Shown: in pieces, positions 1-22,207 of the stretch
Layout of the letters: each line of letters starts with the position of its first letter
Numbering within the stretch: position 1 is the stretch's first letter
The notes under the pieces: model-generated
Database searches by the model: none
Told to the model about the DNA's origin: nothing
What the model saw: only the letters and a program-made list of their open reading frames with translations
Origin: a virus
Length of the DNA stretch: 46,314 bases
Direction: 5' to 3' (one strand)
Virus record (IMG/VR): IMGVR_UViG_3300032087_003821
Location: 1 to 46,314 of that record
Translations under genes and position numbers: made by a program

Positions 1-850
1 CTTTGTCTCTAAACTCTACTTGGAAGTGCCACGGAACACTTGCATCAGGCTTGTGCATTGCATCTACAGGTATCTCAAATTTAGGCTTAGGACGTTCTGC
101 CCATACACGTTTACTTTCTGTATATGCACGTTGTGGCATACCGTTCCATAAACGTTTCAAGTCTTCTTCTTTGTATCCTTCAACGATTCTCGACGCCGTA
201 GGGTCGGACTGCGGTTTAAGGGTGACGTTGATACCTTGCTCATGAAAGAACAAAGCGTTTTCCCAATCACGTTCAAACCAGTCTGGCACCATAACCATAT
301 TGATCGTAACTTGTACATCATGCTCCTGACACAGTATCAACTTGTCTGCAAAGTCTTGCATTTTTTCTACAGTATTTAAGTGTTCTGTGTGTAGGCTTGC
401 TGTAATACTTGCTCTATGGAAAGGTTTTACACGTTCTACATAGTCTTTAAACCAACTCATTGGTCGACTACAGTTTGATGTCATGTGTACACTAGTATAG
501 TTGGTGTTGTCTACGTCATCAGCCAGATGCTGTAGAATATCCAAGTAGCCAGGATGGAAAGTAGGCTCCCCGCCACTAAGACTAAAATGATAACTATTAA
601 ATCCGTTTTCACGTGCCTGTCTCTTTATTTCATCTATGGTCCGTAAGCATAGTTCTGTAGGACGGTGGTCTTTACGGTCACTGCGGGCGTAAGGCCAACA
701 ATAACTACAACGATAGTTACAGAATCGTCCAAGGAGCCAACTGACTGTGAATATGTCGCGGTAGAGTAGAGTACGCTGCCCAACACTGACAATATCATCA
801 AAGGGTAGTTTTGTAAAGTCATAATTTGACCATTTTAAATCTTCAGTCAT
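1..850 (-). CDS. Radical SAM protein, 3' end cut by the window edge
   Basis: 283 codons are visible from the ATG at 848-850 and the frame is still open at position 1, so the C-terminus is missing. The product carries a CxxxCxxC iron-sulfur motif (C44, C48, C51, in the context RFCNYRCSYC) and a GGEP SAM-binding motif at about residues 93-96, both standard for radical SAM enzymes that cleave S-adenosylmethionine to a 5'-deoxyadenosyl radical. The N-terminal layout (VSWLLGRFC) closely resembles the gene at 4716-5855 (VTWDLGRRC), so the two are likely paralogues. The substrate is unknown. It starts 13 bases after the end of the SGNH gene at 864 but has its own promoter (856-884) that places transcription initiation at or next to the ATG, with no Shine-Dalgarno sequence. 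Confidence is high for the family and low for function. Confidence 0.93.
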   Translation of the reverse strand, partial: MTEDLKWSNYDFTKLPFDDIVSVGQRTLLYRDIFTVSWLLGRFCNYRCSYCWPYARSDRKDHRPTELCLRTIDEIKRQARENGFNSYHFSLSGGEPTFHPGYLDILQHLADDVDNTNYTSVHMTSNCSRPMSWFKDYVERVKPFHRASITASLHTEHLNTVEKMQDFADKLILCQEHDVQVTINMVMVPDWFERDWENALFFHEQGINVTLKPQSDPTASRIVEGYKEEDLKRLWNGMPQRAYTESKRVWAERPKPKFEIPVDAMHKPDASVPWHFQVEFRDK

Positions 851-855
851 GTTTA

Positions 856-884
856 ATTATACTTTATCTTTCTTTTTTTGTCAA
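856..884 (-). promoter_or_regulatory. Sigma70-type promoter giving a probably leaderless mRNA
   Basis: Read on the minus strand: -35 TTGACA (884-879), a 17-bp spacer, -10 TATAAT (861-856), both exact consensus. Only five bases separate the -10 from the ATG at 850, so the expected +1 falls on the start codon itself. The -35 and most of the spacer lie inside the last codons of the upstream SGNH gene. It should make the left-edge radical SAM gene independent of the long operon. Confidence 0.8.
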
Positions 885-1637
885 TAAGTTGTCTAGTTTA
901 CCATAAAAGTAATTTTCAATTAGAGTTTCCCATACCATAGGAGATGCGTGAAAGCCGTCAACATAAAGTTTCTTATTTTTATATATAGAATCATCATTAT
1001 AATTATACAATCTCCTTATCCTATTATCCAACACATAGTGGGTTATAAGTTCAACGTCATGCATTTTAAATTCATCTTTTACACGTTTGTCTTTTATGAG
1101 ATAGTTATCAAAACTAAACCATAAAACTTTATGATTTTTACTTTTTATAAAGGCGTTTAACGCTACTATTTTTGAAATAAGATCTTCTTGTTCTAGTGTT
1201 CTAATACTATTTACTTTTAATTTCATTAAAGATTTTTCAATCACCCTGTCCCAAGTAGTCATTCCTGCATCTAATTTTGATATGTTGTAATATTCTATGA
1301 AACAATTAAACAAACGATAGTCCCAAAATTTAGGAAAATTATCAACCATACTCCACGACTTATATTTTATATCTTTTTTACGTTTGTATTCTTGGTAACG
1401 TCCTAATTTTGGTATTTCTGCTAGAATTAAAATATTTTCATTTTGATGCTTGTTTATAATGCCATGTATCCTTGAAAAGTAACTTTCTATTCCTAGTGCA
1501 ACTACACCATAGTTGTATGATTCAACTTCATATCTTTCTGCAATTAATTCACAAAATGGATTAAATTCAGGCACTGTATGACTTGTACCATGCAGCACTA
1601 ATGTTTTAAAATTTTCCAAATGCCCAATATCTTTCAT
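864..1637 (-). CDS. SGNH/GDSL-like hydrolase (first of three in the cluster)
   Basis: 257 residues. The N-terminus has a short beta strand followed by GTSH (residues 17-20), resembling block I of SGNH hydrolases with S19 as candidate nucleophile. Near the C-terminus DGFH (D227, H230) matches the block V Asp-x-x-His that completes the triad. A YNYG segment after the first helix fits the block II region. This family cleaves or transfers ester-linked acyl groups, often on sugars. No signal peptide is seen, so it should act in the cytoplasm. The start at 1637 lies inside the end of the PP-loop gene (32-base overlap) and is preceded by a GGTGG Shine-Dalgarno-like stretch. The family call rests on motifs only and overall similarity is low. 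Confidence 0.7.
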   Translation of the reverse strand: MKDIGHLENFKTLVLHGTSHTVPEFNPFCELIAERYEVESYNYGVVALGIESYFSRIHGIINKHQNENILILAEIPKLGRYQEYKRKKDIKYKSWSMVDNFPKFWDYRLFNCFIEYYNISKLDAGMTTWDRVIEKSLMKLKVNSIRTLEQEDLISKIVALNAFIKSKNHKVLWFSFDNYLIKDKRVKDEFKMHDVELITHYVLDNRIRRLYNYNDDSIYKNKKLYVDGFHASPMVWETLIENYFYGKLDNLLTKKER

Positions 1638-2274
1638 GACACCACCAACAATCGCCGCATACTGTAGAATAGTTATTTGTTACATTTGCTAATCCTTCAC
1701 AACTGCGTGTAAGAGGCAATAGAGTATCTACTAGGCTATGTTGTTTATATATTTCAGCCAATTGATCCTTAGTCATTTGTCCCCAGGGTCTGTACTGAGG
1801 AGGAATTTTTTTACTATCATGCACCATTTCACTAAAAATTTCAAATCCATCTTGACGTTTTTTTACAGGACATGTTTCTACAATATCAATAGTTTTACCG
1901 TTCAGTTCTATTGTAGCATCTTTACTAGGCGCCATACTTGTTGCATTCATTTGTAAATCAATATTATGAAGTTTATATATTTCGAGTTGTGCTTCTGTAA
2001 AATACTCCGGCTCAGGCAAATCATAGTAGTAAATATGATGCTTTCTTATTAAAGATGTTTTGAAGTATCCAACAATAAATCTAATTACACCCTGTGCAAC
2101 CTGGGGGTTCCAATTATCTTTACGTGCATGTCCTAATGTTAGCACATGTACATTTTTATCTTTAATATTGTTTTCTTCGAGTGTTCGTATCAGTTCAAAT
2201 AACATAATAGAACTATCAGCGCCGCCGCTGCAATTAACTAAAATATTATTGTAATCTTTTACAATATCAAACAT
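1606..2274 (-). CDS. PP-loop ATPase with a QueC-like zinc motif (copy A)
   Basis: 222 residues. SGGADSS at 16-22 is the pyrophosphate-binding PP-loop of N-type ATP pyrophosphatases, which adenylate a carbonyl or carboxyl group so nitrogen or sulfur can be installed. The C-terminus has SC (C192) followed by CxxCxxC (C206, C209, C212) and an Arg. That arrangement matches the zinc site of QueC, which makes 7-cyano-7-deazaguanine. Length is close to QueC (about 230), but no other deazaguanine genes are present here, so the true substrate is open. Two longer relatives (8844-9674, 10992-11843) share the TRSCEG signature. It overlaps the SGNH genes on both sides, which suggests a shared pathway. The start follows GGAG seven bases upstream. 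Confidence 0.85.
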   Translation of the reverse strand: MFDIVKDYNNILVNCSGGADSSIMLFELIRTLEENNIKDKNVHVLTLGHARKDNWNPQVAQGVIRFIVGYFKTSLIRKHHIYYYDLPEPEYFTEAQLEIYKLHNIDLQMNATSMAPSKDATIELNGKTIDIVETCPVKKRQDGFEIFSEMVHDSKKIPPQYRPWGQMTKDQLAEIYKQHSLVDTLLPLTRSCEGLANVTNNYSTVCGDCWWCHERYWAFGKF

Positions 2275-3001
2275 TTATTTCTCCTAATCTTAGTTTAATT
2301 GTTGGAATAATGTATTCCTTTAACACTTTTTCTTGCCAATATAAATTCATATGTACACCATCATTTGTCCAAGATTTTACCCTTCTAGGATCGTAATGCT
2401 TTTGAAGTTTGATAAAATGGTATACACTTTTTATATCAGGATGATCACTTGGCAAATGTGTTCCATTATGAACAGTCCAACATATATCAATAACATTGGC
2501 CATTTGACATATTTTTCTAGCATAGTGTAAATCAATACAAGCAATTGTACCTGCTGCCATATCATCGTGGAGAAGTTGATTAACATCGCTCCATATTTTA
2601 AATTTATGTTTTGGTATATAATCTACATTTTTATAGTCAACAGTAGTTGAATAAAGTGTTCCATCATACCATAGAGGACTATAAGATGTCATATAATCTT
2701 TTTTCAAGCGTTCAAAATTTACATTTGGTTTAGACGGTGTAGGCCAATAAGGACCATTGTATATATAACGTGTCCCTCTGTTGGTAATTCCTTCAATTAA
2801 AACTGCATCTACTTGGTAATCTTCAACTAAATGCATAATACGATTAGCATACAATTCACTTCCTCGACCAGACATTGCTTTACATATAAATTCGTGTTCT
2901 GGCATCATTTCATTTAATTGTTCATAAAGTCTAGGTGTCAACTTTGCACCTTTTCCATTATATCCATAACTATGACTGCTACCAACTATTCCAATTTTCA
3001 T
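2267..3001 (-). CDS. SGNH/GDSL-like hydrolase (second of three)
   Basis: 244 residues beginning MKIGIVGSSHS. The GSSH at 7-10 sits where SGNH block I (GDSL-like) is expected, directly after the first strand, with S9 as candidate nucleophile. DGVH (D214, H217) near the C-terminus fits block V. SGRGSE at about 44-49 could be the block II glycine region. The start overlaps the stop of the next upstream gene as ATGA (4 bases), typical of translational coupling. Role by family: esterase or acyltransferase acting on a small molecule or glycan; substrate unknown. It is related in layout to the 2998-3687 gene (both start MKI-V-G-S) and they may be an old tandem duplication. Confidence 0.78.
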   Translation of the reverse strand: MKIGIVGSSHSYGYNGKGAKLTPRLYEQLNEMMPEHEFICKAMSGRGSELYANRIMHLVEDYQVDAVLIEGITNRGTRYIYNGPYWPTPSKPNVNFERLKKDYMTSYSPLWYDGTLYSTTVDYKNVDYIPKHKFKIWSDVNQLLHDDMAAGTIACIDLHYARKICQMANVIDICWTVHNGTHLPSDHPDIKSVYHFIKLQKHYDPRRVKSWTNDGVHMNLYWQEKVLKEYIIPTIKLRLGEINV

Positions 3002-3687
3002 TCTTTATATTTCTCTTTTAACATGTCATAAACTTTTTCGGCTAATGCTTCATTACCTTCAGGTGTAAAATGATAACCTTTATCTAAAACATATTTGTCT
3101 TTAAACTGTATTGTATCCTCTATACACGGATTATCTAAATGTATGTCTCTTTCAAACCAAGAAAATGTTACATGTCTTCCTTTGAAGTTATTTAATACTG
3201 CATCTCCTGCTAATAAAAAAGCCTTGTCTTGTTCGTAAAAAATGTCTGGATGAATATATTTAAAAAACATCTTGTGAATTTTTTCACTAGTGCTGCTGTT
3301 ATATAATCTACCTTTGCCTATTGTTGACAAAGTAAAAATTTGACAATCTTTTTTAAAAGTGTTTCTGTTTATCAAGTAATAGTTTTCACCTGGTTTTTTT
3401 GTAGCATGCCTTACCAAGGCTTTATTTTCTAATTTTTTTTCCATGTTGTATGCAAAAAATCTATTCTGTGTTGTAATTTGTCTTACTACTATGTCTGGTT
3501 TATAATAACTAATTGCCTGATCCATAAATCTATAAGTTAGATAATTACTACCGCCACCAATGCCTAAGTTGTATACAGTAGCATCTGGAAAATATTGTAA
3601 TAATTTATAAGGGTAGGTGTCTTTAAAAGACATAATACCATCTACCCAACCATCTGTATAACTACAACCTACACAAACTATTTTCAT
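2998..3687 (-). CDS. SGNH/GDSL-like hydrolase (third of three, clearest motifs)
   Basis: 229 residues. GCSYTDG at 7-13 is a good SGNH block I (nucleophile S9), GIGGGSN at 42-48 carries the block II oxyanion glycine, and HFTPEGN beginning at H206 is a typical block V histidine context, with D202 four residues upstream. This is the most convincing SGNH member of the three. No signal peptide or membrane segment is present. It abuts the radical SAM gene at 3688 with no gap. Expected chemistry is ester hydrolysis or acyl transfer, perhaps trimming or adding acyl groups on the product made by the neighbouring enzymes; that link is inference from operon position. Confidence 0.85.
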   Translation of the reverse strand: MKIVCVGCSYTDGWVDGIMSFKDTYPYKLLQYFPDATVYNLGIGGGSNYLTYRFMDQAISYYKPDIVVRQITTQNRFFAYNMEKKLENKALVRHATKKPGENYYLINRNTFKKDCQIFTLSTIGKGRLYNSSTSEKIHKMFFKYIHPDIFYEQDKAFLLAGDAVLNNFKGRHVTFSWFERDIHLDNPCIEDTIQFKDKYVLDKGYHFTPEGNEALAEKVYDMLKEKYKE

Positions 3688-4719
3688 TTATATACCACAC
3701 TTTTCTGTACATAAAGGCAATAATCTATTTGAAAAGTTATCTTCTAAATCTTCTTCATAAAATTTATGATTTAATATTTCAAAAATATTATAATAATTCA
3801 AATTGTTAAAATTACTACCGTATTCACTTATTCTTTCATCAAGCCAGACAAAACGTCTCCGGTCATTTGCCCTACCAGTATGCATACTAAAATAACAACA
3901 AGGCCATACTTCTCCCATTTGATTTATTTGAATTCTGGCATCTTTCATCCACGGGCAAACAGGTTTAGAAACTTCTGTACTATTGCTAGTCTTTTTATCA
4001 TTATTTTTTATTTCATCTTCGGCCCATTCAACATCTTTACGTAGATTATCTACAGTTTGTTTATTAGGAGACGTAATTAGTCCAGCAGGCATTCCTTTGT
4101 ATTCAACAACAGGTATACTGTTATCAAAACTTCTATTTAAACTAAATGCAATAAAACCCATTTCTTTTGCTAGATTACTTGCTTCCTGTAACTGATGTAA
4201 GTTATGGTCAAATACAATCATACGCCATCTAGCAGGACCTCCTGCATCTATATATGCTTTAGCATTTTTCATAATATCGCCAAAATCTACACCTCGTCTA
4301 TATATGTGATTTGTATCTTCTAATCCGTCAATACTAAATGTAACCACACTTCCCGGAAATTTCTTTACAATGTTTGCTAAAGAAATCCAAAAGTCTTTAG
4401 ATCTTGCTCCGCCATTAGTGTGTATATTTAATCTAACATTTTGATTTGGTTTATCATATAATAATTCTAACATTTCAATAAATTTTGGATGACTTGATAT
4501 GTCTCCAAAATTGCCGTTGAAACTAATTTTTTCTAATTTAGTTTTATCAGCAAAATCACAAACTTGCTGCCAAACGTCCCAATCTATATGTTGCAATTTT
4601 ACTAAAGGATTGACTGCACCGCCTTTAATGTTTCTTACACACGCACCACAAAAACTATTACAATAACTTGTAACATCTATTTGTATTTCAAAAACATTAA
4701 AAGGATCTATTACATTCAT
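3688..4719 (-). CDS. Radical SAM/SPASM-like protein, 'TNHxYR' subfamily (copy A)
   Basis: 343 residues. CxxxCxxC is at C20, C24, C27 (YCNSFCGAC). The usual GGEP is replaced by NGNFGD at about 68-73. A DG..DTNHIYR block at about 131-140 is shared with the genes at 13273 and 14340, defining a subfamily within this window. The C-terminal half has C255, the CC pair 274-275 after a GEVWP turn, and C337/C341, as expected for a SPASM-like domain that binds auxiliary clusters. SPASM radical SAM enzymes mostly modify peptides or proteins, but also sugars such as aminoglycosides. It overlaps the next radical SAM gene by ATGA. Substrate unknown. Confidence 0.9.
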   Translation of the reverse strand: MNVIDPFNVFEIQIDVTSYCNSFCGACVRNIKGGAVNPLVKLQHIDWDVWQQVCDFADKTKLEKISFNGNFGDISSHPKFIEMLELLYDKPNQNVRLNIHTNGGARSKDFWISLANIVKKFPGSVVTFSIDGLEDTNHIYRRGVDFGDIMKNAKAYIDAGGPARWRMIVFDHNLHQLQEASNLAKEMGFIAFSLNRSFDNSIPVVEYKGMPAGLITSPNKQTVDNLRKDVEWAEDEIKNNDKKTSNSTEVSKPVCPWMKDARIQINQMGEVWPCCYFSMHTGRANDRRRFVWLDERISEYGSNFNNLNYYNIFEILNHKFYEEDLEDNFSNRLLPLCTEKCGI

Positions 4720-5855
4720 TCCTCTAGATGACCTTCCATCACTTTATTATAATTGTCTATGTATTTGCTTTTAGGCGCACACAGTCCGCATCCACATGTG
4801 TGCTTTGGACAAATAATTGTAGGTAATGTATTTGTATTGAGTTTGTGTTTTAGGTCTGCTAATATTTTATCACCTTCACTAATTTTACCAATTGGACCTC
4901 GTGTTTGATCAAAGCGGGCTTGACAAGTTTGATGATGGAAAACACTATCAGTTTGTTGTTCTAAATGTAAAAAGAAATAATTTACACTACAATGCCAACC
5001 TTTAAATTCTCTTAAATCAACAAATGTGCTTTTTCTACTTTCGCCGTTCAAACTCAAACACATTTCTCGACTACCGCAACACGGTCTACCGATTGTCATA
5101 CCTAGTTTTTTCTTTTCACTAGTCTTTTCTCCAGCATTGCTAAGTTGTGCTGCTTCTTCTTGTGTCTCGTTTAATTCTGCATTTTTATATGTCCAGTAAT
5201 TTTTCATGTAATCTAATTGTTCATCAGTATACATATGTGCAAAATTACTTTTACTGTCAGGCTCTTCTCCAATAATTCTTGGTACATATTTTACGCCTAA
5301 ATTGTGTAGATAATCACATAAATCTTTACATTCGTCAAAGTAAGCAGCATGAAACATAACATTACAACTAATACTATAATCAGCATCATGAAACTGTTTT
5401 ATTCTATCACGCACTTGTTGTTTAAGTTTGTTATCACTTTCTGCGTGATAGCTAACTGTAATGTGTCCTAAATTTTCCATTACTGCATCAGCCATTTTTG
5501 CGCTCATTGCACCATTACTTGTAAGTGCAAAACCACAAGCCCATTTATCTTGATACTTAGCTTCGTATTCTTCTTTTAAATATTTTACAAAAGGAATAAA
5601 GTTTGGATTTACTGTTGGTTCTCCACCAGTAAAACTTATGCTAGTATGCTTGTAACTTCTTTTCTCCATATAAACATCAATATATTCAAAAAGAAAATCA
5701 ACTGCACTTTTAAGTTCGTCTAGACTTGCATGAGGACTAAAATTATCATGTCTATGTGCTGGGCAATAACTACAATCATAATTACAACGTCTGCCTAAAT
5801 CCCAAGTAACTTGAAATACTTTACCTGTAAGTAGGTCAACTGTATCAAAACTCAT
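4716..5855 (-). CDS. Radical SAM protein, paralogue of the left-edge gene
   Basis: 379 residues. CxxxCxxC at C24, C28, C31 (RRCNYDCSYC), GGEP at 77-80, and a cysteine-rich C-terminus (C349, C354, C356, C359) that may bind an auxiliary iron-sulfur cluster or zinc. The N-terminal part matches the truncated gene at 1-850. The start codon shares one base with the stop of the upstream radical SAM gene (5855) and the end overlaps the downstream one by four bases, so four radical SAM genes (8313 to 3688) are read as one coupled block. The specific reaction cannot be told from sequence. Confidence 0.92.
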   Translation of the reverse strand: MSFDTVDLLTGKVFQVTWDLGRRCNYDCSYCPAHRHDNFSPHASLDELKSAVDFLFEYIDVYMEKRSYKHTSISFTGGEPTVNPNFIPFVKYLKEEYEAKYQDKWACGFALTSNGAMSAKMADAVMENLGHITVSYHAESDNKLKQQVRDRIKQFHDADYSISCNVMFHAAYFDECKDLCDYLHNLGVKYVPRIIGEEPDSKSNFAHMYTDEQLDYMKNYWTYKNAELNETQEEAAQLSNAGEKTSEKKKLGMTIGRPCCGSREMCLSLNGESRKSTFVDLREFKGWHCSVNYFFLHLEQQTDSVFHHQTCQARFDQTRGPIGKISEGDKILADLKHKLNTNTLPTIICPKHTCGCGLCAPKSKYIDNYNKVMEGHLEE

Positions 5856-7171
5856 TATATATAATCCTTAAATATCGGTTCTACGTCTAACAAACTTTCT
5901 GCTCTAATTTTGTCTAATGTAGCAGTATAATTTTTAAAATAATCCCAATGCTCTTTATAGTAACTTTCACTAGTCATATAACTTACTACACTGTTTCTTA
6001 TACCCTTTGCCTTTGTTTTTGTATTATCTGGTAAATCTGTATCTTCTATCCAGTCTACAAAATTATCAAAATTTGTTTCAATGTGTTTTTTTAAATCATC
6101 TGGCAACACTCTGATATTTAAGTGTTTAGGATGATGTGCCATATGGAATGTGATTATAGGTTTTCCTTTAAAGCAATTTAATTTTTTAAAACCACTCTCT
6201 GTAAGTTTCCATTTCATAAAATCAATCATATGGTTTACGTTATATGCTGTAACTGTAAAGGCAAGCCATCCCATTATGTTAGGCGGCGATCCGTCTAATG
6301 TATATAGATTTTTTAAAAGTTTATTCCATTTTGCTGGATTTCTTTGGTATTCTAAAACTTTGCCATATCCATCTATACTTGCACCAACTCGGACTTGTTT
6401 AAAGTTTTTCCACAAATCGATTACTCTAGGTGGCAATGTACTCATGTTTGTGTTATATTCAACAATAATATTTTTTGCGCTATCAGTATCAATGCAATGT
6501 TGTAAAAAATCATAGTGTCTATCTATTAGCATCGGTTCGCCACCTGCAAAATAAACATGTTCAATGTTTTGCACATTACTATACAATTGTTTCCAAAAAC
6601 TGTCATTATGTACCCAGTTATATGCATCAGATACAAGTTTGTTTCCTTTACGATATATCTGCACTTCACCGCTAGTTTCTTTGTAAGTAGTTTTACCTGT
6701 AAGTTTTTCCCAATCTTCATACCACGTATCACTGTCAGTTGGACCGCACATTCTACATTTTAAATTACAAAAATTACCAAATCGCAAATCGTAATATTGT
6801 ACAGGATTTTTTTCGGTATCAATTTCGCCTAAATTGTTGGTAATTTTTTGTGCTTTTTGTAAGGTAAAATTTGGCCAGTTTTTTTCTTCATATAGACGTC
6901 TGCTGCTTAGTCCATTTTCTTCTTCATTACGACAACGACCGCACTCTTCACTCCACTTACCCGATAACATATTTAATCTTACATTTTTCATTAAATCTGC
7001 ATTACGTGCTTCGTTTAAATTATCAACACCAACATTATATGCAGTGCCATCTGACTTTCTAATTACACCTTGATTTTTTGTAATGTTTGCTTGACAGCAT
7101 ACACGGATATCTCCATTAGATCTAGCTGCTTGGAATATCCACGGTATAGGGCAAAATGTATCAGACATCAA
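5855..7171 (-). CDS. Radical SAM protein with N-terminal twitch/SPASM-like domain (1 of 5)
   Basis: 438 residues. A cysteine-bearing module precedes the radical SAM core: C7 in FCPIPW, the CC pair 25-26, and CxxC at 77/80. The core follows with CxxxCxxC at C135, C139, C142 and GGEP at 210-213. This order, auxiliary-cluster domain first, is that of the family known as N-terminal twitch radical SAM proteins, common in phage and marine genomes and of unknown function. Sister genes in this window are 7168-8313, 9667-10995, 11830-13230 and 20834-22207. It is coupled to the neighbours by overlaps of 4 and 1 bases. The second Met may be the real start; the difference is one residue. Confidence 0.92.
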   Translation of the reverse strand: MMSDTFCPIPWIFQAARSNGDIRVCCQANITKNQGVIRKSDGTAYNVGVDNLNEARNADLMKNVRLNMLSGKWSEECGRCRNEEENGLSSRRLYEEKNWPNFTLQKAQKITNNLGEIDTEKNPVQYYDLRFGNFCNLKCRMCGPTDSDTWYEDWEKLTGKTTYKETSGEVQIYRKGNKLVSDAYNWVHNDSFWKQLYSNVQNIEHVYFAGGEPMLIDRHYDFLQHCIDTDSAKNIIVEYNTNMSTLPPRVIDLWKNFKQVRVGASIDGYGKVLEYQRNPAKWNKLLKNLYTLDGSPPNIMGWLAFTVTAYNVNHMIDFMKWKLTESGFKKLNCFKGKPIITFHMAHHPKHLNIRVLPDDLKKHIETNFDNFVDWIEDTDLPDNTKTKAKGIRNSVVSYMTSESYYKEHWDYFKNYTATLDKIRAESLLDVEPIFKDYI

Positions 7172-15422: not shown

Positions 15423-15636
15423 GCACCAACTTTACATCTTTACCAGGGCCAGTTTTACTAGGCAAATTGCCATACTGATCAATATACCATTCAATAACTG
15501 CCTTGTACCAATTTTGGCTGTTGTGATGCGCACGTTTGTTAAACTGCCAAATATTATTGTTTGTTGCTTGCATTGTGCTTAGAGCTCTTGCACTTTCTGT
15601 TTGAAGTTCACGTAACGTTAAATCATTTATATCCAA
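15412..15636 (-). CDS. Small conserved-looking protein, 74 aa, unknown
   Basis: Kept as a gene because it fits exactly between its neighbours with overlaps of 11 and 14 bases, like every other junction in this operon. The product begins MDINDLTLRELQTES, helical and charged, with a Trp/Asn/His-rich centre (NNNIWQF, HHNSQNW) and a C-terminal GPGKD turn. No cysteine, signal peptide or membrane segment is present. I do not recognise the family. It sits directly before a SPASM-type radical SAM gene, so a binding partner or a ribosomally made substrate is conceivable, but no leader/core boundary or repeat is visible to support that. Confidence 0.75.
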   Translation of the reverse strand: MDINDLTLRELQTESARALSTMQATNNNIWQFNKRAHHNSQNWYKAVIEWYIDQYGNLPSKTGPGKDVKLVLDV

Positions 15637-16666
15637 TTTTCATAAACCTTTTATATTTGTCTAATTGTAATTCGCCTTGATATAAAACTTTAGACATAGG
15701 CGCACTAGCACTAAAATTATCTAAAGTTTTGTGACAATTTACGTGTTCTTCTATTTCAAAATAATCATTTCCTTGTAGTATTACTAATTGATTTTTTTGT
15801 ATACAATCATACCATTCTTTAAAATTTTCGATATGTTCTGTACTGGTATTTATAACTGTGTTAGGATACCCCCATAGTCTTTCAGTTGTTCCGTCTGATT
15901 TGTTTACATCGTATATATGTTCATCAAACATAATTTCAAATATATCCTGTGTACATGCCTTGAAACGCCAATCCTCTAACACCCATTTTTTATTAAACGT
16001 TTCGGCAATTTTCCAAACATTAGGATCGATATCAAAACTTACAATTTTATCAATTTTTAATTTACTTTCAAATAACATTGTAGCCAATGTAGCATACCAA
16101 CCAGCACATAAAAATACTGTGCCTAAAACTACATCTAAATCTTTTAATGTATCAACTAACCAAATTTTGCTTTTTAGTTGTCCTTGGCTAAAACAATCTT
16201 TATCAAATTCGATATCATTTGTAATTAAATCTTTTAACGCTTTCACAAAATAACTATCGGTATATCTTTTTAATACTTTAAACAAACTCCATATATTGTC
16301 ATCAGTAATTAGTTTTTTTAAATCTTCATCTCCGATTAGTCTAAAAGTACTGTAAATATTATCTTCTAATACTGCCTTACGTAAATCTTCATTTCCTGGT
16401 AATAATCTAAATAAACTGCGAAGGTTTTCTTCTAATACTGCCTTACGTAAATCTTCTATATCGCCAACACAACGTTTGTTATCAACCAGTCTAAACACAC
16501 TATGCGGACTTTTACTTACAATAGCTTTGCTTAGTTCTTCTTTATTTGCTAATTGCAAAATAGTATAGATATCTTTATCGTTATAGCACCGGCGTAGTAG
16601 GCTAATTTTTTCATTGTCTACATTTAATATTTCAAATCTATCTAGTATTTCAAATATTTCCATCAA
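15623..16666 (-). CDS. Class I methyltransferase-like protein with N-terminal tandem repeats
   Basis: 347 residues in two parts. Residues about 43-137 hold four degenerate 21-28-residue helical repeats built on EDLRKAVLEDN..S.FRL. Residues about 180-345 look like a Rossmann methyltransferase: LCAGWYATLA at 186-195 in the motif I (SAM-binding) position and SFDIDP at 210-215 as the acidic motif II. It contains no recognised catalytic signature, so SAM binding is likely and methyl transfer only probable. The middle repeats share an exact 29-bp DNA repeat, a sign of recent in-frame duplication. It overlaps the glycosyltransferase upstream by 17 bases and the 74-aa gene downstream by 14. Confidence 0.75.
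   Translation of the reverse strand: MMEIFEILDRFEILNVDNEKISLLRRCYNDKDIYTILQLANKEELSKAIVSKSPHSVFRLVDNKRCVGDIEDLRKAVLEENLRSLFRLLPGNEDLRKAVLEDNIYSTFRLIGDEDLKKLITDDNIWSLFKVLKRYTDSYFVKALKDLITNDIEFDKDCFSQGQLKSKIWLVDTLKDLDVVLGTVFLCAGWYATLATMLFESKLKIDKIVSFDIDPNVWKIAETFNKKWVLEDWRFKACTQDIFEIMFDEHIYDVNKSDGTTERLWGYPNTVINTSTEHIENFKEWYDCIQKNQLVILQGNDYFEIEEHVNCHKTLDNFSASAPMSKVLYQGELQLDKYKRFMKIGYK
16362..16456 (-). repeat. Exact 29-bp direct repeat (66-bp period) inside the methyltransferase-like gene
   Basis: The 29 bases at 16362-16390 recur without change at 16428-16456. The 66-base offset equals 22 codons, so the repeat is in frame and encodes the EDLRKAVLE part of two adjacent helical repeats. Identity at DNA level, against only protein-level similarity of the flanking copies, suggests recent duplication or conversion. 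Confidence 0.9.
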
Positions 16667-17684
16667 ACTTTTCCTTTAACCAGTCAAAGTCATTGATACG
16701 TTTCAATTCTTCTGTATTGTTCCTATGACGAGCACCATAAGCAGCACCTGCTTTAGCACCTTTTAACGCATATTCTGCAAAAGGAGGATCATTTTCAGTA
16801 TAAGTACACCATGCTCTCAATCTTTTATTTGTTTCTTCATCTTTTTGTCTGTCAATAATTTTACTACTCAATTTGACACATTCTCTAAAAGCACTCTTCC
16901 ATGTGTTAAAAGGATCAGTATTAAATGCTGTTACATTAGATATCTTATCCATTGCTACAAATTTATTACTTATACTTGTTGTCATATCAGGTTTGCTTGT
17001 ATCCATCATAAGTGTTTTTTCTGTAGGAAAAAGTTTTACACCGCCATATCCGTATACTAGCCCATTTACTGGATTTAAACTACGCCATACATGCACTGCT
17101 TCTTTGTTATGATGTTCAGGAATATGATTAAACTTAAAATAATCTGTTAGTTGTGCATCACCATCAATAATCCAAAACATTTCTGTTTCACATAAACTTG
17201 CTGCGGCGATGTGTGCTTGATGAATACCTTTCACACCATGTATACGTTTTACATCTGGAAAACGTTCTAGTATACGTTCATAATTTTCGTCAGCATTTGG
17301 CTCATTGTAACTTATAAAAACTTTGTCAAATTCACTACCAACTGGTTTGCTTGCTTGTATCTCAACAAACTTTTTATTGATATAAAAACGTGCTTTTAAT
17401 TCACCTGGTCCGTGATGACTGTTTTTTGGCATCAATGCTACACCGTCGTAAAACTTGCCATTTAAAAAAACGTGTGTTATGTCTTGACTATAATCGTCTG
17501 GCACATAATCAAATTCAAAATCATATTTTACAATTAGGTTATTATAAACAATCCAAACAAACTTGGTTAGACATTTTTGTTTTGCTTCTGGTACAGTGCT
17601 TGCACATTTAGCCGTAGGAACAGATTGCTTTAAATCTAAAAATAATTTTTCAGACGGATCGCCTATAAAATAAACATCATACAT
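16650..17684 (-). CDS. GT-A-type glycosyltransferase-like protein with N-terminal extension
   Basis: 344 residues from the ATG at 17684. The C-terminal two thirds match the gene at 22207-23133: ISYNEPNADENY versus LSYDEPNAEKNY, then GVKG..QAH/SAH and a DGD (D164-D166) where the other has DAD. DxD is the metal/nucleotide-sugar site of GT-A glycosyltransferases. The first 110 residues (MYDVYFIGDP...) are an extra domain absent from the paralogue. An upstream in-frame ATG at 17756 is rejected because it lies upstream of the promoter and inside the divergent leader. It heads the long operon; its predicted transcript starts on the ATG with no Shine-Dalgarno sequence. Confidence 0.8.
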   Translation of the reverse strand: MYDVYFIGDPSEKLFLDLKQSVPTAKCASTVPEAKQKCLTKFVWIVYNNLIVKYDFEFDYVPDDYSQDITHVFLNGKFYDGVALMPKNSHHGPGELKARFYINKKFVEIQASKPVGSEFDKVFISYNEPNADENYERILERFPDVKRIHGVKGIHQAHIAAASLCETEMFWIIDGDAQLTDYFKFNHIPEHHNKEAVHVWRSLNPVNGLVYGYGGVKLFPTEKTLMMDTSKPDMTTSISNKFVAMDKISNVTAFNTDPFNTWKSAFRECVKLSSKIIDRQKDEETNKRLRAWCTYTENDPPFAEYALKGAKAGAAYGARHRNNTEELKRINDFDWLKEKFDGNI

Positions 17685-17690
17685 ACAGTA

Positions 17691-17719
17691 ATTATATGAT
17701 AATATAACTTTTAAGTCAA
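17691..17719 (-). promoter_or_regulatory. Sigma70-type promoter of the long enzyme operon; leaderless start predicted
   Basis: Minus strand: -35 TTGACT (17719-17714), 17-bp spacer, -10 TATAAT (17696-17691). Six bases separate the -10 from the ATG at 17684, so +1 should be the A of the start codon. No purine-rich ribosome site is present. There is no upstream gene on this strand, so this is the only apparent entry for transcription of about 17 kb of enzymes. Confidence 0.82.
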
Positions 17720-17729
17720 GAACAGAATA

Positions 17730-17737
17730 GATAAATA
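17730..17737 (+). promoter_or_regulatory. T4-type late promoter octamer
   Basis: GATAAATA on the plus strand, one base from the T4 late consensus TATAAATA, ending 17 bases before the ATG of the fibre gene at 17755, with GGAGGA at 17745-17750 as ribosome site. The same octamer precedes virion genes at 29406-29413 and 33945-33952. It lies back to back with the sigma70 promoter of the opposite operon. Confidence 0.7.
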
Positions 17738-17754
17738 ATGTAGCGGAGGATGAC

Positions 17755-19215
17755 ATGGCGGATTTTATACCAGGTGAAGCATATAGATTAGATATCGTTG
17801 GTGCAGACGAATCGATTATCGTAGATAGTTGGCAAGGAACTATTAAAGCAAATACAGTATCAGATTTAGGTATGGTACAAGTTGATGTATCTATTGGAAA
17901 ACTTTATGGACCTATGGTAGGCGATATTGAAGACACCGAAGGCAATATTGTATTTGATGCAACTGCTCAAACACTAAAAGCAGATGTATTTGGTAGTGTG
18001 TATGATAACAGTGGCGCTATTAAAATAATAGACGGTATGACTGGTAAAATTACTGGTCCTCTAAGTGGTAATGTGATTGCTTCAGATAATACCATAATGG
18101 TTGATACTGCTAGTAAAACAATCACAGCAAATACTTTTACCGGTGACCTATACGGAGATGTTTATGGTAACCTTACAACAGACAGTGTTGTATATGGTAC
18201 ATTTAGTGGCGATTTTAATGGTACTTCATATGGTGAATTTTTTGGTAATAGTGTAGGAGAACACACAGGCGATGTAATAGGTGATGTTACTGGTCATGTT
18301 ACTGGTAATCTTACAGGTAGCGTTACAGGAGAATTACTTGCAGTAAGAGAAGGCGAAGATGTTGCTACACGTCTTACAGCATGGAATGAACATTTCCAAC
18401 AATGGGAATGGTATGGCGGCGTCGGTAATCCATTTCCAGCAGATGAGACAGACATTGCCAAAGGTCCTATTATTTTAACTAGTACAGACAGATCTCAAAC
18501 TGCACTAAGAGCAAATGTTATACACTACAATGGCACTGAAATTATTAAATTACACACCGACGAACTAGACCCAGATTGTCCTACTGCACCAGCAACCATA
18601 AGAGGTCAGTTTGATGGTAATTTTATTCACATGGACGAAACTGATATTGCTCATACTGTTTTAAGTGCAGATACCATTGGCGGTAGTGTGTTACATCCAG
18701 TAAATGGAAAACTAAATATTGGTATGCATAACGATCCTGTTGAGGATATTCAGATCAATGCAAGTAATTTTACAATAGAATCAAAACTTACACGTATAGA
18801 TACAGCCGGTGTAGAAATTAAAACTCATACGTACAGAGGCGATGTTGATGCAAAACAAGCAGTGCGTGATGAAGATTTAATCGGTGGCTTTCACGTTCAT
18901 GCATATAACGGAAACGAAATGGTTGTTGCCGGCGGTATGGGATTCACTGTTGCAGGTGATGTAAGCGAAACTGGAATTGGTATACCTTCGAGATTTGTAG
19001 TAGGAACATCAACTAATACACATAAATTCCATCCAAACAACGAACATCAACTTGAATTCTGTAACGGGGTACTCACTGTGCCTGTAATGCAAGCAGATCC
19101 TATGGACTTTGTAACAAGAGATGAAATAACTGCCGAAGCTGGAATGATTATTTTCAATAGTAGCAGTAACACATTCCAAGGATTTAATGGCACTTCTTGG
19201 GTTGACTTACACTAA
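17755..19215 (+). CDS. Tail/side-fibre-like structural protein with G-rich hexapeptide repeats
   Basis: 486 residues. Residues about 50-195 are built of short Gly-centred repeats (GDVYGNL, GDVIGDVTGHVTGNLTGSVTG) typical of beta-helical trimeric phage fibres. The C-terminal end IIFNSSSNTFQGFNGTSWVDL is a common fibre-tip ending. No signal peptide; the protein should be assembled into the virion. It does not share the N-terminal domain of the three fibres at 27863-33319. It is the only virion-type gene on the plus strand here and is sandwiched between the two enzyme operons behind a late octamer, making it a candidate target of the neighbouring modification enzymes (inference). GGAGGA precedes the start. 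Confidence 0.85.
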   Translation: MADFIPGEAYRLDIVGADESIIVDSWQGTIKANTVSDLGMVQVDVSIGKLYGPMVGDIEDTEGNIVFDATAQTLKADVFGSVYDNSGAIKIIDGMTGKITGPLSGNVIASDNTIMVDTASKTITANTFTGDLYGDVYGNLTTDSVVYGTFSGDFNGTSYGEFFGNSVGEHTGDVIGDVTGHVTGNLTGSVTGELLAVREGEDVATRLTAWNEHFQQWEWYGGVGNPFPADETDIAKGPIILTSTDRSQTALRANVIHYNGTEIIKLHTDELDPDCPTAPATIRGQFDGNFIHMDETDIAHTVLSADTIGGSVLHPVNGKLNIGMHNDPVEDIQINASNFTIESKLTRIDTAGVEIKTHTYRGDVDAKQAVRDEDLIGGFHVHAYNGNEMVVAGGMGFTVAGDVSETGIGIPSRFVVGTSTNTHKFHPNNEHQLEFCNGVLTVPVMQADPMDFVTRDEITAEAGMIIFNSSSNTFQGFNGTSWVDLH

Positions 19216-19229: not shown

Positions 19230-19261
19230 TAAAACACTAGAAATTTGGAGGTTCTTTCAGT

Positions 19262-20251
19262 ATGATCTACATTGATGGCGTAGAATATTTAAAAAGCGAT
19301 AACGAACATGTTAGAGAATCTGTTATCAATTATCTTGATAACTGGAATATTACAGTTAGTACAAGTGGAACAACAGGCAAACCAAAAACATATCAACACA
19401 GTGAAAAACTAATGAGACAAGTTGCAGAATACAATGCAGAATATTTTATGCTTGACTCCAATAGTAGCATGATGGCATTGTACAATCCACGAGGCATTGG
19501 ATTTACAAGTATGAGCTTGTATCCTTGTCACGTTGCAAACTGCGACACATTTATTGAAACTACAGTTGCTAATCTACCGGATAGAATTAGTGAAGTACAG
19601 CCAACAAATATGTTGATACTTCCTAATGTTTGGAAAACCTGGCATAGACACAAGAAATGGAAAAACTTAGATTTAAGTTGTATGAAGCAAATGCAGGTAG
19701 GTAGTGATATCACTCCTACAGGACTAATGGAAGATTTACGAGCTCGCGGAGCACAACAAGTAAATACAGGCTACGGCAGCACAGAAGTACCGCCTGTTAT
19801 TATGAGCACAGAACGTCAAGACGTGTATAAGTTTAGTGATATAAATCCAAATATTGATTTTAAATTTGTCGAACACGATGACGGCAGTACTGAATTTTAC
19901 TGCAAATACAAAGAACAAACAGAATGGTGGGACAGCGGCGATCTTGTAGAATTTAACAGCGCAGATGAATTTAGATTGTCTGGAAGAAGATACAATGCAT
20001 TCAAAATGGAAAACTGCGGCGACAGGGTATATCCAGAACAAATTGAAAAAGTTGCTATTGAAAATGGTGCAAGTTTAGCATTGTGTAGAAAAGTTGCTCA
20101 TGAATGTGTTGTGTATTACACTGGCGAGTTAGATGTTGAAAACTTTACCAAACAACATAAATGTGCTTATGAAATCAAACCCGTTAAAGTAAATGAAATT
20201 AAAGTAGATGACAATCTACGTAAAATTTCTAGGAATCAAGAATTTGTATAG
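19262..20251 (+). CDS. Short AMP-forming acyl ligase (ANL superfamily)
   Basis: 329 residues, well below the usual 480-550. The phosphate-binding loop STSGTTGKPK is at 33-42, GYGSTE (motif A5) at 170-175, DSGD (A7) at 224-227, GRRYNAFKMENCGDRVYP (A8 hinge) at about 241-257, and the C-terminal end RKISR contains the lysine expected for adenylation (A10). The regions normally before the phosphate loop are missing, so the substrate-entry part is reduced. It should activate a carboxylic acid as acyl-AMP and pass it to a thiol or amine. The next gene, acetyltransferase-like, overlaps it by 44 bases, which suggests an activation-then-transfer pair. Acyl donor and acceptor are unknown. Confidence 0.88.
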   Translation: MIYIDGVEYLKSDNEHVRESVINYLDNWNITVSTSGTTGKPKTYQHSEKLMRQVAEYNAEYFMLDSNSSMMALYNPRGIGFTSMSLYPCHVANCDTFIETTVANLPDRISEVQPTNMLILPNVWKTWHRHKKWKNLDLSCMKQMQVGSDITPTGLMEDLRARGAQQVNTGYGSTEVPPVIMSTERQDVYKFSDINPNIDFKFVEHDDGSTEFYCKYKEQTEWWDSGDLVEFNSADEFRLSGRRYNAFKMENCGDRVYPEQIEKVAIENGASLALCRKVAHECVVYYTGELDVENFTKQHKCAYEIKPVKVNEIKVDDNLRKISRNQEFV

Positions 20252-20837
20252 ATTTGAAGCGTACGACGGATCACAGGATCTAACACAATGGTTTGTAGAT
20301 GCCGAAAAGCATGGATACTACAATAACAGTAGTAAAGAAATGCTTATTGATTATATTGCAAAATACGAAGATGCAACACTGTTTTTGCTTTACTACAACG
20401 ATAAAATTGTAGGTAATAGTGTTGTACATAGTTTAAAAGGCTTAGGTATACTAGGTAAGGATGCTTACAGAATTGGTGCTAGAACTTGTCTAGTAAGAGA
20501 TCATATCGACGGTAATAGAGTTTATGCTCCTAGATCGTGGGGACCAATAAACCATCATACACTGCAAATGTTATTTCCAGTTTGCATTGAACATGTTGGT
20601 AGAGATAAACCAGTTTACATTAGTACGCACGAAGGTGGTGTAGGCAGTCAAAATCGTGTTCATAGAGTATGGACAAAACGTTTCACTAATCAACTTGGTG
20701 TAACAAAAGACCCTATTGAATTAGAGTACAAAGGTACGTTTCAAACATTTTATCGTATCGATGTAGATCGCTTGTACGAATTGCTAAAAGATGCAAGATG
20801 GCCAGAAGCAGAACAAGCCATTCCTCTTTTTAGTTAA
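20208..20837 (+). CDS. Possible GNAT-type N-acyltransferase
   Basis: 209 residues. The central part (LFLLYYNDKIVGNSVVHSL, then YRIGARTCLVRDHI) resembles the strand pair of GNAT acetyltransferases, and SQNRVHRVW at about 147-155 sits where the acetyl-CoA-binding helix region is expected, but the classical RxxGxG/A signature is not evident, so the call is tentative. The start at 20208 gives an unusually long 44-base overlap with the acyl ligase and has no clear ribosome site; a non-ATG start nearer 20240 is possible. The stop TAA shares bases with the stop of the convergent radical SAM gene (TTAA at 20834-20837). Confidence 0.6.
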   Translation: MTIYVKFLGIKNLYRFEAYDGSQDLTQWFVDAEKHGYYNNSSKEMLIDYIAKYEDATLFLLYYNDKIVGNSVVHSLKGLGILGKDAYRIGARTCLVRDHIDGNRVYAPRSWGPINHHTLQMLFPVCIEHVGRDKPVYISTHEGGVGSQNRVHRVWTKRFTNQLGVTKDPIELEYKGTFQTFYRIDVDRLYELLKDARWPEAEQAIPLFS

Positions 20838-22207
20838 ACGTATTTTCTGCAAAGTTCAAAAAAGTCCGACATTTCAGGAAACGCTGCGGTAAAATCATTG
20901 CCGCGGCGTTTGTCTTGTTCAGTAAAGAAATTGTGAAAATCTCTGCGTCCTTGAATAATTTTATCCAATGGATATTCAGTAGTTTCCATATAATCTACTA
21001 CACGTCTAAACTTTTCATATTCTATAGTGCTAAACGCATCTTTGCGATTGTCATCTACATTTTCTTTAATAAATTGTAAATGATCATGCATATAACTCAT
21101 GTAGTTTTTAGGTAGTATGTTTATGTCATATTGTAGCGGTTCTTTTAAATGTGGTGTATCAAAACCCAAACGCTGCCATCTGTGTGTTTCTACATCATTG
21201 TATTTTGCACGCCATTCTAATATTTTTTCTAACAGTGTGCGGAATGTTGTAACACTAAAGATATTAAATGTAATCATCAACACCATAGGCGCTTCACAGT
21301 TACGCATAAAGTAATCCAAATTACGTTCAAATGTTTTGATGTCTAAGCCATCACGAATATACTCTGCCCGTTTTCCCCAGGTATCAATACTTGTAAACAT
21401 TTTGAATCGTCTAATCTTATTGTTTGTAAGCAAATCATTTACACGGTTAGTAAACTTTTCTAGTTGCTTTGGCTTACCACCTAAGTTGCTGTTGCAGTTT
21501 AATTCTAACTCTGGCTTAGGATCTGCATCCAGCATATCAAACAACTTGTATGTACTTTTTTGTATTGTAGGTTCGCCGCCTGTAATACGCAGTATATGTA
21601 GCTCTTTACTAAGCTCAGGCCACCAACGCCAAAATGCATCTAAATACGGATTGTTTTCTTCTTCAAAAATTTGAAACCAATCAATATCGCATCTATGATT
21701 TTTTACATTTGTATATGGACCGTGTTGAGCAATTTCTTGATAATATCTACTACTTGCTTTAGGATGACAATATCCGCAGCGGAAGTTACATTCGTTTCCA
21801 AAACTGACTTCTAAGTATTCTGGGTTTACGTCAAACTCTGCTCCGCCTTCTTTCACTGCTGCTAATCTGTGCTTAAAAAATATAGTTTGATTACGCTGTT
21901 TCCTATCACTAACATAATCTTTACCCATTGCTTCAATTTTCCAGCAATAATTACAACCACTAGGTTGTTCACCACGCATCATAGCAGCACGTTCTTGTTT
22001 CTTTTGTGCTGTGTTATGTATTGCACTTGGATTTTCTAATAATGGTGCTGTATCAATCTTGTGCGGTGCTGGATGATAACAACTGTGTGTTTCACCTGTT
22101 TGGAAATATATGTTAGCATGATACCATTTAGCAAAACAAAACGTAGGTGATATTTCCTGCGTAATAGTATCAATACGCTTTATTTCTTCGCTTTCGCTGC
22201 GTTCCAT
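20834..22207 (-). CDS. N-terminal twitch radical SAM protein (5 of 5), in the second operon
   Basis: 457 residues. N-terminal module: C24 (TFCFAKW), C43 followed by Tyr instead of a second Cys, and CxxC at 85/88. Core: C140, C144, C147 (ECNFRCGYC) and GGEP at 210-213. It is separated from the other nine radical SAM genes by the plus-strand segment and travels with glycosyltransferases, overlapping the DAD glycosyltransferase gene by a single base. That pairing is an argument for a glycan-linked role for the whole family here. It is the last gene of its operon and its stop overlaps the convergent gene's stop. Confidence 0.92.
   Translation of the reverse strand: MERSESEEIKRIDTITQEISPTFCFAKWYHANIYFQTGETHSCYHPAPHKIDTAPLLENPSAIHNTAQKKQERAAMMRGEQPSGCNYCWKIEAMGKDYVSDRKQRNQTIFFKHRLAAVKEGGAEFDVNPEYLEVSFGNECNFRCGYCHPKASSRYYQEIAQHGPYTNVKNHRCDIDWFQIFEEENNPYLDAFWRWWPELSKELHILRITGGEPTIQKSTYKLFDMLDADPKPELELNCNSNLGGKPKQLEKFTNRVNDLLTNNKIRRFKMFTSIDTWGKRAEYIRDGLDIKTFERNLDYFMRNCEAPMVLMITFNIFSVTTFRTLLEKILEWRAKYNDVETHRWQRLGFDTPHLKEPLQYDINILPKNYMSYMHDHLQFIKENVDDNRKDAFSTIEYEKFRRVVDYMETTEYPLDKIIQGRRDFHNFFTEQDKRRGNDFTAAFPEMSDFFELCRKYV

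Follow-up and report, generated by a model that had tools for sequence, protein, structure and literature searches.

A modular, tail-linked island of radical SAM genes in a fragment of a putative marine jumbo phage

The IMG/VR virus record IMGVR_UViG_3300032087_003821 was analysed over its entire length of 46,314 bases, referred to here as the window. It carries ten radical S-adenosylmethionine (rSAM) genes, R1 to R10, in the neighbourhood of tail-fibre genes. Comparison with related loci identified a real, selected, tail-linked and modular rSAM island, in which a small core of constant order is interspersed with cassettes that are exchanged between phages. A first-pass annotation of the window had proposed that the rSAM genes form one biosynthetic pathway together with PP-loop, SGNH, SDR, glycosyltransferase and acyl ligase genes. 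The island does act as one functional locus with respect to core, gene order, co-occurrence, motifs and selection, but it does not encode a single fixed pathway, as the accessory set differs from phage to phage.

All ten rSAM open reading frames (ORFs) of the first-pass annotation were found in place, each with a CxxxCxxC motif, and all were recognised in Pfam, NCBIfam and PHROGs searches. Each of the ten proteins matched the Pfam Radical_SAM profile. Eight reached the cut-off of 29.5 bits, R2 (3688-4719) exactly, while R8 (13273-14343; 21.6 bits, E 2.8e-4) and R10 (20834-22207; 27.1 bits, E 5.3e-6) remained below. A genome-level Radical_SAM search found nine of the ten and missed R9 (14340-15422). 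The ORFs are intact, as had been claimed, except that R1 (2-850; motif CNYRCSYC, 60.6 bits), the final gene of the cluster, is cut by the record end, leaving 283 residues in the window compared to 393 in the relative G012 and 373 in G004. All ten genes lie on the minus strand.

The proposed division into three groups was reproduced by profile scores and family clustering. The cut-off of 170 bits for NF033640 (twitch domain-containing rSAM proteins with an N-terminal twitch) was passed by R4 (5855-7171; 372 bits), R5 (7168-8313; 255 bits), R6 (9667-10995; 189 bits), R7 (11830-13230; 426 bits) and R10 (305 bits) alone. R2, R8 and R9 constitute a single SPASM-like family with additional conserved cysteines, the common pattern being C19/C23/C26, C275/C276 and C344/C348 in R9 numbering. 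R1 and R3 (4716-5855) belong to a separate family with a plain core.

Using R7 as bait, 167 relatives were retrieved from viral contigs and the best 80 loci (82-100% identity) were analysed. Presence was counted from matches over 45% identity, and these counts are lower bounds because contig ends or the 10-kb flank truncate many of the loci. R9 was present in 77 loci, GTa in 64, MT in 55, R8 in 50, R3 in 42 and R4 in 38, followed by the SDR gene (37), PP2 (36), R1 (35), R6 (33), R5 (24), R10 (18) and PP3 (18). R2 (5 loci), PP1 (2) and the SGNH genes (1-2) were rare. Among the 23 dereplicated loci extending at least 9 kb past R7, 17 contained R1. Counted as families, MT was present in 70 of 87 sources and GTa/GTb in 74. 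The core order GTa-MT-R9-R7-R1 was constant across the 80 loci, and the rSAM, QueC-like and SDR cassettes between the core genes were exchanged. Locus L011, for instance, is 97% identical to the window in R7, PP3 and R6 but 68% in R8, and its relative of R3 (66%) occupies another place in the order.

With R9 as bait, the best 80 of 363 relatives were used. R7 (at least 60% identity) was found in 38 of the 40 loci of at least 19.6 kb, which contained 4-12 rSAM ORFs each (median 8). These 40 loci include near-copies; 15 of the contigs were already in the R7-baited set, and 24 of the 25 outside it have R7. L272, one of the two loci without R7, ends before the R7 gene that L070 displays on the same contig. 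Furthermore, 20 records of 62-257 kb showed 9-19 Radical_SAM matches apiece and 9-20 N_Twi matches at E <= 0.001, some of the latter under the cut-off, whereas none of 14 control genomes scored above the N_Twi cut-off. Clustering of 44 dereplicated loci yielded 345 orthogroups, and 271 of these were seen once, from which we conclude that each phage carries its own accessory set around the small core; the counts of two orthogroups labelled 'R3/R4' and of two labelled 'R10/GTb' were excluded. In 112 orthogroups all members have CxxxCxxC.

Of the 677 members of four rSAM families, 676 retain the CxxxCxxC motif (351/352, 203/203, 100/100 and 22/22). Among ORFs with an R protein as best match, 21 of 734 lack it; many of them touch a locus end, some do not. 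Hence, the relatives show neither motif loss in most copies nor random subsets devoid of order and co-occurrence, since core and order are kept and some gene pairs are linked. Pairwise ratios of nonsynonymous to synonymous substitutions (dN/dS) were 0.016-0.158 in the 33 gene comparisons listed for the three loci L016, L011 and L013, all between proteins sharing 75% identity or more; the rSAM genes among them gave 0.016-0.100. Purifying selection on the genes of the locus is strong. N-twitch paralogues inside one record are old, with a highest identity of 44.7% and a median of per-record maxima of 31.8% in 68 records with at least three copies. Co-occurrence was calculated for 36 pairs in the 23 loci with at least 9 kb downstream of R7, with p-values that ignore the kinship of loci. 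R5 and R6 were both present in 8 loci, one without the other in 1 and 0, and neither in 14 (p 1.8e-5); further pairs were R3-R8 (p 2.8e-4) and PP2-R6 (p 1.3e-3). The negative associations seen for R1 probably arise from locus edges. As a separate observation, the related records G010, G011, G013 and G014 each hold an N-twitch match with a single in-frame TGA, possibly a pseudogene.

From R9 (14340) down to position 2 the rSAM run comprises 16 genes with 15 junctions, of which 12 overlap, one abuts and two are gaps of 13 and 42 nt. The assumption that all genes share the same transcripts fits this tight minus-strand run. It does not extend to ACYL and its two neighbours, which are off the rSAM transcript because they lie on the plus strand, nor to R10, which is located in a separate minus-strand run together with glycosyltransferase-like genes. 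The sole long gap of the rSAM run (200 nt) is occupied by a 74-residue ORF (15412-15636, minus strand) that could be a small gene or peptide.

Three genes of the run encode QueC-like PP-loop proteins. R6 was followed by PP2 (8844-9674, minus strand) in 12 of the 13 dereplicated loci having R6, and in three loci a single ORF of about 830 residues joins an R6-type rSAM enzyme to a QueC-like domain of PP2 type (L066:12556-15039, L067:12559-15042 and L082:12598-15129). The AlphaFold model of PP2 (pLDDT 94.4) had QueC as its top fold match (3bl5, Z 14.5 over 187 residues; 2pg3, 13.8), followed by Cap9 (13.2) and TilS (13.1); Foldseek alone placed thiolases such as TtuA and NcsA, Cap9 and TilS on top. 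In the 34 sequences compared, T216, S218, C219, C248, C251 and C254 are invariant, including the zinc-type cysteines of the QueC C-terminus. PP1 (1606-2274, minus strand) displays SGGADS and a C-terminal CGDCWWC along with a PP-loop Pfam match below cut-off and a weak QueC-like PHROG match, and PP3 (10992-11843, minus strand) is the third QueC-like protein. In the window PP2 and PP3 had no Pfam match at all, and PP1 matched only ATP_bind_3, below cut-off. The Pfam QueC profile was found in 1 of 126 phage accessory proteins and in 4 of 75 proteins neighbouring bacterial clusters; the former were the Pfam-scanned part of 158 orthogroup representatives (130 listed), the latter 75 of 80.

The PP proteins of the window resemble QueC, Cap9 and QatC in fold, SGGxDS loop and C-terminal cysteine motif, but they are 14-19% identical and no full 7-deazaguanine pathway was recognised in the window. 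QueC converts a carboxylate via an amide to a nitrile. Cap9 puts a 7-deazaguanine-type group on a protein, and the title of its structure entry names NDG modification. By analogy, PP2 might perform a QueC-type conversion on another substrate. Modification of DNA with 7-deazaguanine was considered but found no support: QueC-like and weak QueE-like matches exist, but FolE and QueD were not recognised in the window, where 31 of the 34 named proteins were searched with Pfam. The QueE-like PHROG matches of R1, R3, R4 and R5 were weak (best 1.8e-7, R1) and ranked behind other families or below cut-offs.

The twitch module has cysteines of auxiliary-cluster type ahead of the rSAM core. In the N-terminal part of 55 N-twitch sequences C9, C90 and C93 are invariant and C27 is conserved in at least 90%. 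Residues 5-72 of the twitch profile aligned best to BtrN 166-238, with an E-value of 1.2e-8 for the whole sequence and one below 0.01, although not below 1e-7, for the stretch alone. The match of the N-terminal part to the C-terminal part of CteB was very weak (stretch E 2.6). As the N-terminal twitch aligns with the C-terminal part of BtrN, the domain order of the N-twitch rSAM proteins looks permuted.

The position of the island links it to the tail genes of a large phage. Large terminase of the relative G012 (246 kb) is of T4 type, its best cultured matches being PA5oct and kin (55%) and Atu_ph07 (52%). U4 (33319-33921, minus strand), a jumbo-phage protein encoded after the giant structural gene, has homologues in 60 phage records and is 55.9% identical to that of Phosso; the 15 U4-bearing records listed measure 310-490 kb, e.g. 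Phosso, Atu_ph07, 121Q and Munch. The giant structural protein (33948-46313, minus strand; at least 4121 residues, open at the record end) is homologous to the virion structural protein of Phosso (4555 residues), with 27.5% identity over 1483 residues. On account of these relatives by terminase, U4 and giant structural protein, we infer that the window comes from a jumbo myovirus of the T4 superfamily, of marine origin, and represents part of its genome. In G012 and G004 the rSAM island lies downstream of baseplate, giant structural and fibre genes, and in the window downstream of the giant and fibre genes. By gene order, all three resemble the pelagimyophage-type layout, in which a hypervariable island follows giant baseplate (VrlC-like) and fibre genes. 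In G012 the island starts by the fibre genes (about 146 kb) and reaches R1 at 207 kb, with a strand switch right after R1. Searches for cultured relatives with the rSAM genes gave two records for R7, one for R9, three for R4 and two for R10, all at only 21-33% identity, and PP3, GTb, MT and R3 had no cultured-phage relatives. Three phage-like contigs (L135, L138 and L145) are binned in metagenome-assembled genomes titled Rickettsiales, Neisseriaceae and Gammaproteobacteria, which is likely binning contamination and possibly a hint to the host.

The timing of expression was addressed with ATAAATA, the core of the T4 late promoter, which in T4-type regulation sits some 20-35 nt ahead of late genes. 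The motif is rare in these records: the window contains 5 sites compared to 33.4 (standard deviation 5.6) in shuffled sequences. Of 161 sites in seven sources, 70 (43%) are located 15-40 nt before an ORF, a placement reached by at most 9% for 20 permuted motifs, and 96 are located within 70 nt before an ORF (permuted motifs at most 17%). In the window the motif precedes only FIBa (17731-17737, plus strand, 18 nt upstream), TF1 (29406-29412, minus strand) and U4 (33945-33951, minus strand). In G012 it is found before R7 and further rSAM genes, and in G004 before R8; across the relatives, on partly overlapping contigs, 18 R8 orthologues were counted with the motif upstream. Since the genes are tightly packed, this suggests late expression of the rSAM run.

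Related gene sets occur in bacteria. A scan of genome contigs with the R4-type alignment pattern detected 71 loci, and 40 of these carry titles of Bdellovibrionota type. Several bacterial loci on long contigs combine R9-, SDR-, R4-, R7- and PP-type genes, with R7 at most 62% identical. L137, L139, L136 and L180 are among the loci from Bdellovibrionota-titled genomes, and L137 also has QueC-like, SDR-like and, by eye, HTTM-like membrane genes. Unlike the phage islands, three stretches of Bdellovibrionota N_Twi clusters inspected by eye contained no recognisable phage tail genes. Seven Bdellovibrionota-titled genomes (G021-G027) showed 13-37 N_Twi matches at E <= 0.001, many within tens of kb, and in the phylum of G021, which is titled Bdellovibrionia, 55 of 191 genomes were over the N_Twi cut-off. 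In the N-twitch tree phage and bacterial sequences interleave, with 27 label changes, at least 15 of them forced by starred branches, compared to a shuffled mean of 55; the three phage-like binned contigs were excluded, many branches are long and sampling depends on the baits. The interleaving points to repeated exchange of N-twitch genes between phages and bacteria. Among the literature matches listed, none paired Bdellovibrio with rSAM enzymes.

Tentatively, and with less than even confidence, we propose that the host-recognition region of these T4-superfamily jumbo phages houses a modular biosynthetic island, which is probably expressed late, and that its predicted product is a glycan-like moiety on tail-fibre proteins. 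The core genes GTa, MT, R9, R7 and R1 would provide the scaffold chemistry. The cassettes, typically an N-terminal-twitch rSAM enzyme plus a QueC-like enzyme and sometimes SDR, GDSL, acyl-activating, carbamoyl-, sulfo- or methyl-transfer genes, would add a different decoration in each phage. GT8-like and GTa/GTb enzymes might build or prime a sugar chain, in which rSAM enzymes, judging from their family, might oxidise or rearrange unactivated C-H positions. QueC-like enzymes may then adenylate a carboxylate formed by the partner rSAM enzyme to give an amide, nitrile or conjugate, as fold, adjacency and fusion suggest. Cassettes are swapped among phages, as the mosaic loci show, and probably with bacteria, as the interleaved tree indicates. 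Decorated fibres could tune adsorption or hide the virion.

A decorated glycan is favoured because of the glycan-type accessory genes and the glycogenin match of GTc and GTd. Pfam assigned UDP/GDP-sugar dehydrogenase, sugar NTP-transferase, carbamoyltransferase, FkbM methyltransferase, APS kinase, GDSL, mannosyltransferase, nitroreductase, hydroxylase, desaturase and acyl-activating genes to the 126 accessory phage proteins, mostly once each. Several observations weigh against the proposal. Only 36 Pfam families were found among these proteins, all but four via one member, and MT and GTa/GTb had no meaningful match in the Protein Data Bank. No ATAAATA motif precedes the rSAM genes of the window. 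In per-gene counts, which include overlapping contigs, the motif preceded 9 of 352 N-twitch genes, 18 of 202 R2/R8/R9-family genes, 1 of 100 R1/R3-family genes, 1 of 91 PP genes and none of 84 GTa/b and 72 MT genes. A few rSAM genes reside outside the island, e.g. two at 240-243 kb of G012. The R7 model tied peptide- and sugar-acting rSAM enzymes (CteB 11.8, BlsE 11.5, SkfB 11.4 and DesII 11.4), so the fold comparison was discarded as a test of sugar versus peptide substrates. Moreover, the related clusters in Bdellovibrionota genomes cannot serve phage tails.

More speculatively, and with rather lower confidence, the fixed core and the exchangeable twitch-rSAM/QueC-like cassettes, traded with Bdellovibrionota-type bacteria, may write a phage-specific hypermodified coat in the adhesin region. 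This would be a viral counterpart of O-antigen diversification, accomplished by enzymes not known to act on virions.

The product might instead act on the surface of the infected cell, altering its lipopolysaccharide or a different glycan so as to exclude competing phages or aid the progeny, a reading that we regard as rather unlikely. GT8-like, sugar dehydrogenase, carbamoyltransferase, Asp_Arg_Hydrox and fatty-acid desaturase genes are compatible with such remodelling, 3 of 75 neighbours of bacterial clusters are family 2 glycosyltransferases, and host-surface modification has been proposed for glycosyltransferases of the equivalent pelagimyophage region (PMC7029224). However, late motifs at some cluster genes and the position next to tail genes suit virion parts somewhat better, and rSAM modules adjoin structural genes also in Phosso and SURPRISE13, which have other hosts. 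Direct action of the rSAM enzymes on fibre polypeptides, introducing crosslinks, epimers or hydroxylations as maturases of ribosomally synthesised and post-translationally modified peptides do on their precursors, appears unlikely. CteB, SkfB, SuiB and anSME are among the profile and fold relatives, Asp_Arg_Hydrox genes accompany the clusters and 2-oxoglutarate (2OG) oxygenase genes those of SURPRISE13 and DT01, and Cap9, the third-ranked fold relative of PP2, is protein-modifying. Yet the sugar-acting BlsE, BtrN and DesII match about equally well, and no peptide precursor was recognised, with the 74-residue ORF of the long gap as a possible candidate.

A secreted or intracellular small molecule such as an antibiotic, cofactor or signal, or a general metabolic boost, is improbable. 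The gene repertoire resembles natural-product clusters, G012 encodes an S-adenosylmethionine synthetase (L100:1379-2458, minus strand) and an SbmA/BacA-type transporter (L099:15949-16977, minus strand), and a boost of host metabolism was suggested for CP220 and CPt10 (PMC2853527). On the other hand, among 20 records, many of which are fragments, the synthetase occurred in one and A-type Fe-S carriers in none, and so high a gene turnover would be unexpected for shared metabolism. For the same counts, phage-borne supply of S-adenosylmethionine to rSAM enzymes in general and phage-borne A-type carriers were both rejected. A mere gathering of unrelated accessory genes in a hypervariable island would account for the many orthogroups seen once but is very improbable in view of the conserved core and order, the rSAM-PP-loop fusion, co-occurrence and purifying selection.

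Several of the gene labels are weak. No significant family match was obtained for MT, GTa, GTb or two of the SGNH trio, and the matches of the third SGNH gene and the SDR gene are under the Pfam cut-off. SG1 (864-1637) and SG2 (2267-3001) matched nothing in Pfam or PHROG and are left without a family. SG3 (2998-3687) is GDSL/SGNH-like (Lipase_GDSL_2, E 2.7e-4), and the SDR-like protein (8306-8860) matched adh_short at E 0.0058; SDR genes were found in 3 of 75 bacterial-cluster neighbours. The core protein MT (15623-16666), a member of the conserved family A8, is methyltransferase-like by eye alone, with no support from Pfam, PHROG function or the Protein Data Bank. GTa (16650-17756; family A7) is weakly glycosyltransferase-like, its G012 homologue matching Glyco_tranf_2_3 below cut-off (E 0.0026), and GTb (22207-23133) joined the GTa family by clustering. 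U2 (23126-23674) had no Pfam or PHROG match and no assigned family. GTc (23676-24524) and GTd (24511-25344) are GT8-like; alone they gave no Pfam match, but their family profile matched glycogenin (E 8e-6) with invariant D91 and D93. All these genes are on the minus strand.

On the plus strand, FIBa (17755-19215) is by eye a repeat-rich fibre-like protein, with the late motif before 24 of 38 family members. ACYL (19262-20251) is a short AMP-binding, acyl-activating protein (E 1.9e-13, profile positions 170-337 of 384) and lacks about the first 170 positions of the domain; it is grouped with the fibre-like gene and the small U1 (20208-20837), which is acyltransferase-like by eye alone and had no Pfam or PHROG match. 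FIBa was followed by ACYL in all 7 loci with the FIBa group of the window. Back on the minus strand, U3 (25341-25688) is a small protein conserved in relatives, and the two genes FIBb and FIBc (25739-27841) are structural-like by position. The three genes TF1-TF3 (27863-33319) encode tail-fibre or tail-collar proteins; TF1 and TF3 matched tail-fibre PHROGs, TF3 has a Collar domain and TF2 a similar start. The giant structural ORF holds carbohydrate-binding CBM_5_12 and FG-GAP matches.

Earlier reports called multi-rSAM phages 'highly unusual' and explained the genes as metabolic boosters (for boosting, PMC2853527). The rSAM genes are now tied to a tail locus, a conserved core, a QueC-like partner and, at some genes, late-promoter motifs. 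The question has become testable because some of the phages with an rSAM module in the corresponding position are in culture and can be named. Should the island indeed make a decoration of the virion, this would add a new layer to phage-host recognition and reveal a rich stock of radical enzymes that await characterisation.

In Sinorhizobium phage Phosso and Agrobacterium phage Atu_ph07, four rSAM genes come right after homologous baseplate wedge, giant, U4 and fibre genes, in Phosso at about 185-192 kb of the record. These four represent every Pfam rSAM match of both genomes and are 56-81% identical between the two phages. They had no BLAST relation to the window and its relatives at E 1e-4, so the likeness is one of arrangement. 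The Phosso module differs from the window in having a cupin and no QueC-like protein among ten proteins tested. In the available text on an Atu_ph07-like Sinorhizobium phage (PMC11242549) no word starts with 'radical'. Two Phosso rSAM genes have relatives in Pseudomonas phage pPa_SNUABM_DT01 and in the Burkholderia phages FLC6, FLC8 and SURPRISE13, and cupin and 2OG-oxygenase genes accompany the rSAM genes in SURPRISE13 and DT01.

Cupin and 2OG-oxygenase genes are also reported with the rSAM genes of FLC6 (PMC8066314). SURPRISE13 has its rSAM genes at gp71-79 and a QueC-like gp155 away from them (PMC11898562), DT01 has six rSAM genes (PMC8541153) and Aeromonas phage 332-Vera eight among structural genes (PMC12390700). 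The last three are other phages whose 4-8 rSAM genes form a run or share a region, which in 332-Vera and SURPRISE13 adjoins structural genes; they are likened to the window by arrangement, sequences having been compared only through the Phosso-type searches. In a largely open-access literature, we found no report linking multi-rSAM phage clusters with modification of the tail or with a QueC-like partner next to them.

The pelagimyophage host-recognition cluster, a hypervariable island by the tail fibres, contains rSAM cassettes together with aminotransferase and carbamoyltransferase genes (PMC7029224). Pelagibacter phage Mosig (L129), a SAR11 phage, has only 2 Pfam rSAM matches; in its host-recognition cluster the genes for a fatty-acid desaturase, TauD and Asp_Arg_Hydrox share 66-68% identity with their counterparts in the jumbo-phage records L051 and G004. 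Vibrio phage K566 (L130) has six Radical_SAM matches, four of the genes being contiguous with one on the opposite strand. Six rSAM genes are reported for IBB_35 (PMC3322345) and five for CC_R7 (PMC12398825). TARA_ERS488813_N000010, a T4-like marine contig of 183 kb with 12 rSAM genes discussed as Fe-S metabolism (PMC5332604), possibly belongs to the same group as the window by its description, but it has an A-type carrier. Campylobacter phages CP220 and CPt10 contain 11 and 12 rSAM genes, respectively, and an interchangeable module of 10-12 genes, five of them rSAM genes in each phage, with a conserved functional plan (PMC2853527). They resemble the island by description; the available part of that report states no tail link, and their rSAM genes are fewer than the 17-19 Pfam matches of our four longest records. 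That a phage rarely keeps this many rSAM genes is therefore true for most phages, but the window is not unique in view of CP220 and CPt10, the TARA contig and 332-Vera. Multi-rSAM phages have been known since 2010, and the island described here is a striking variant of them.

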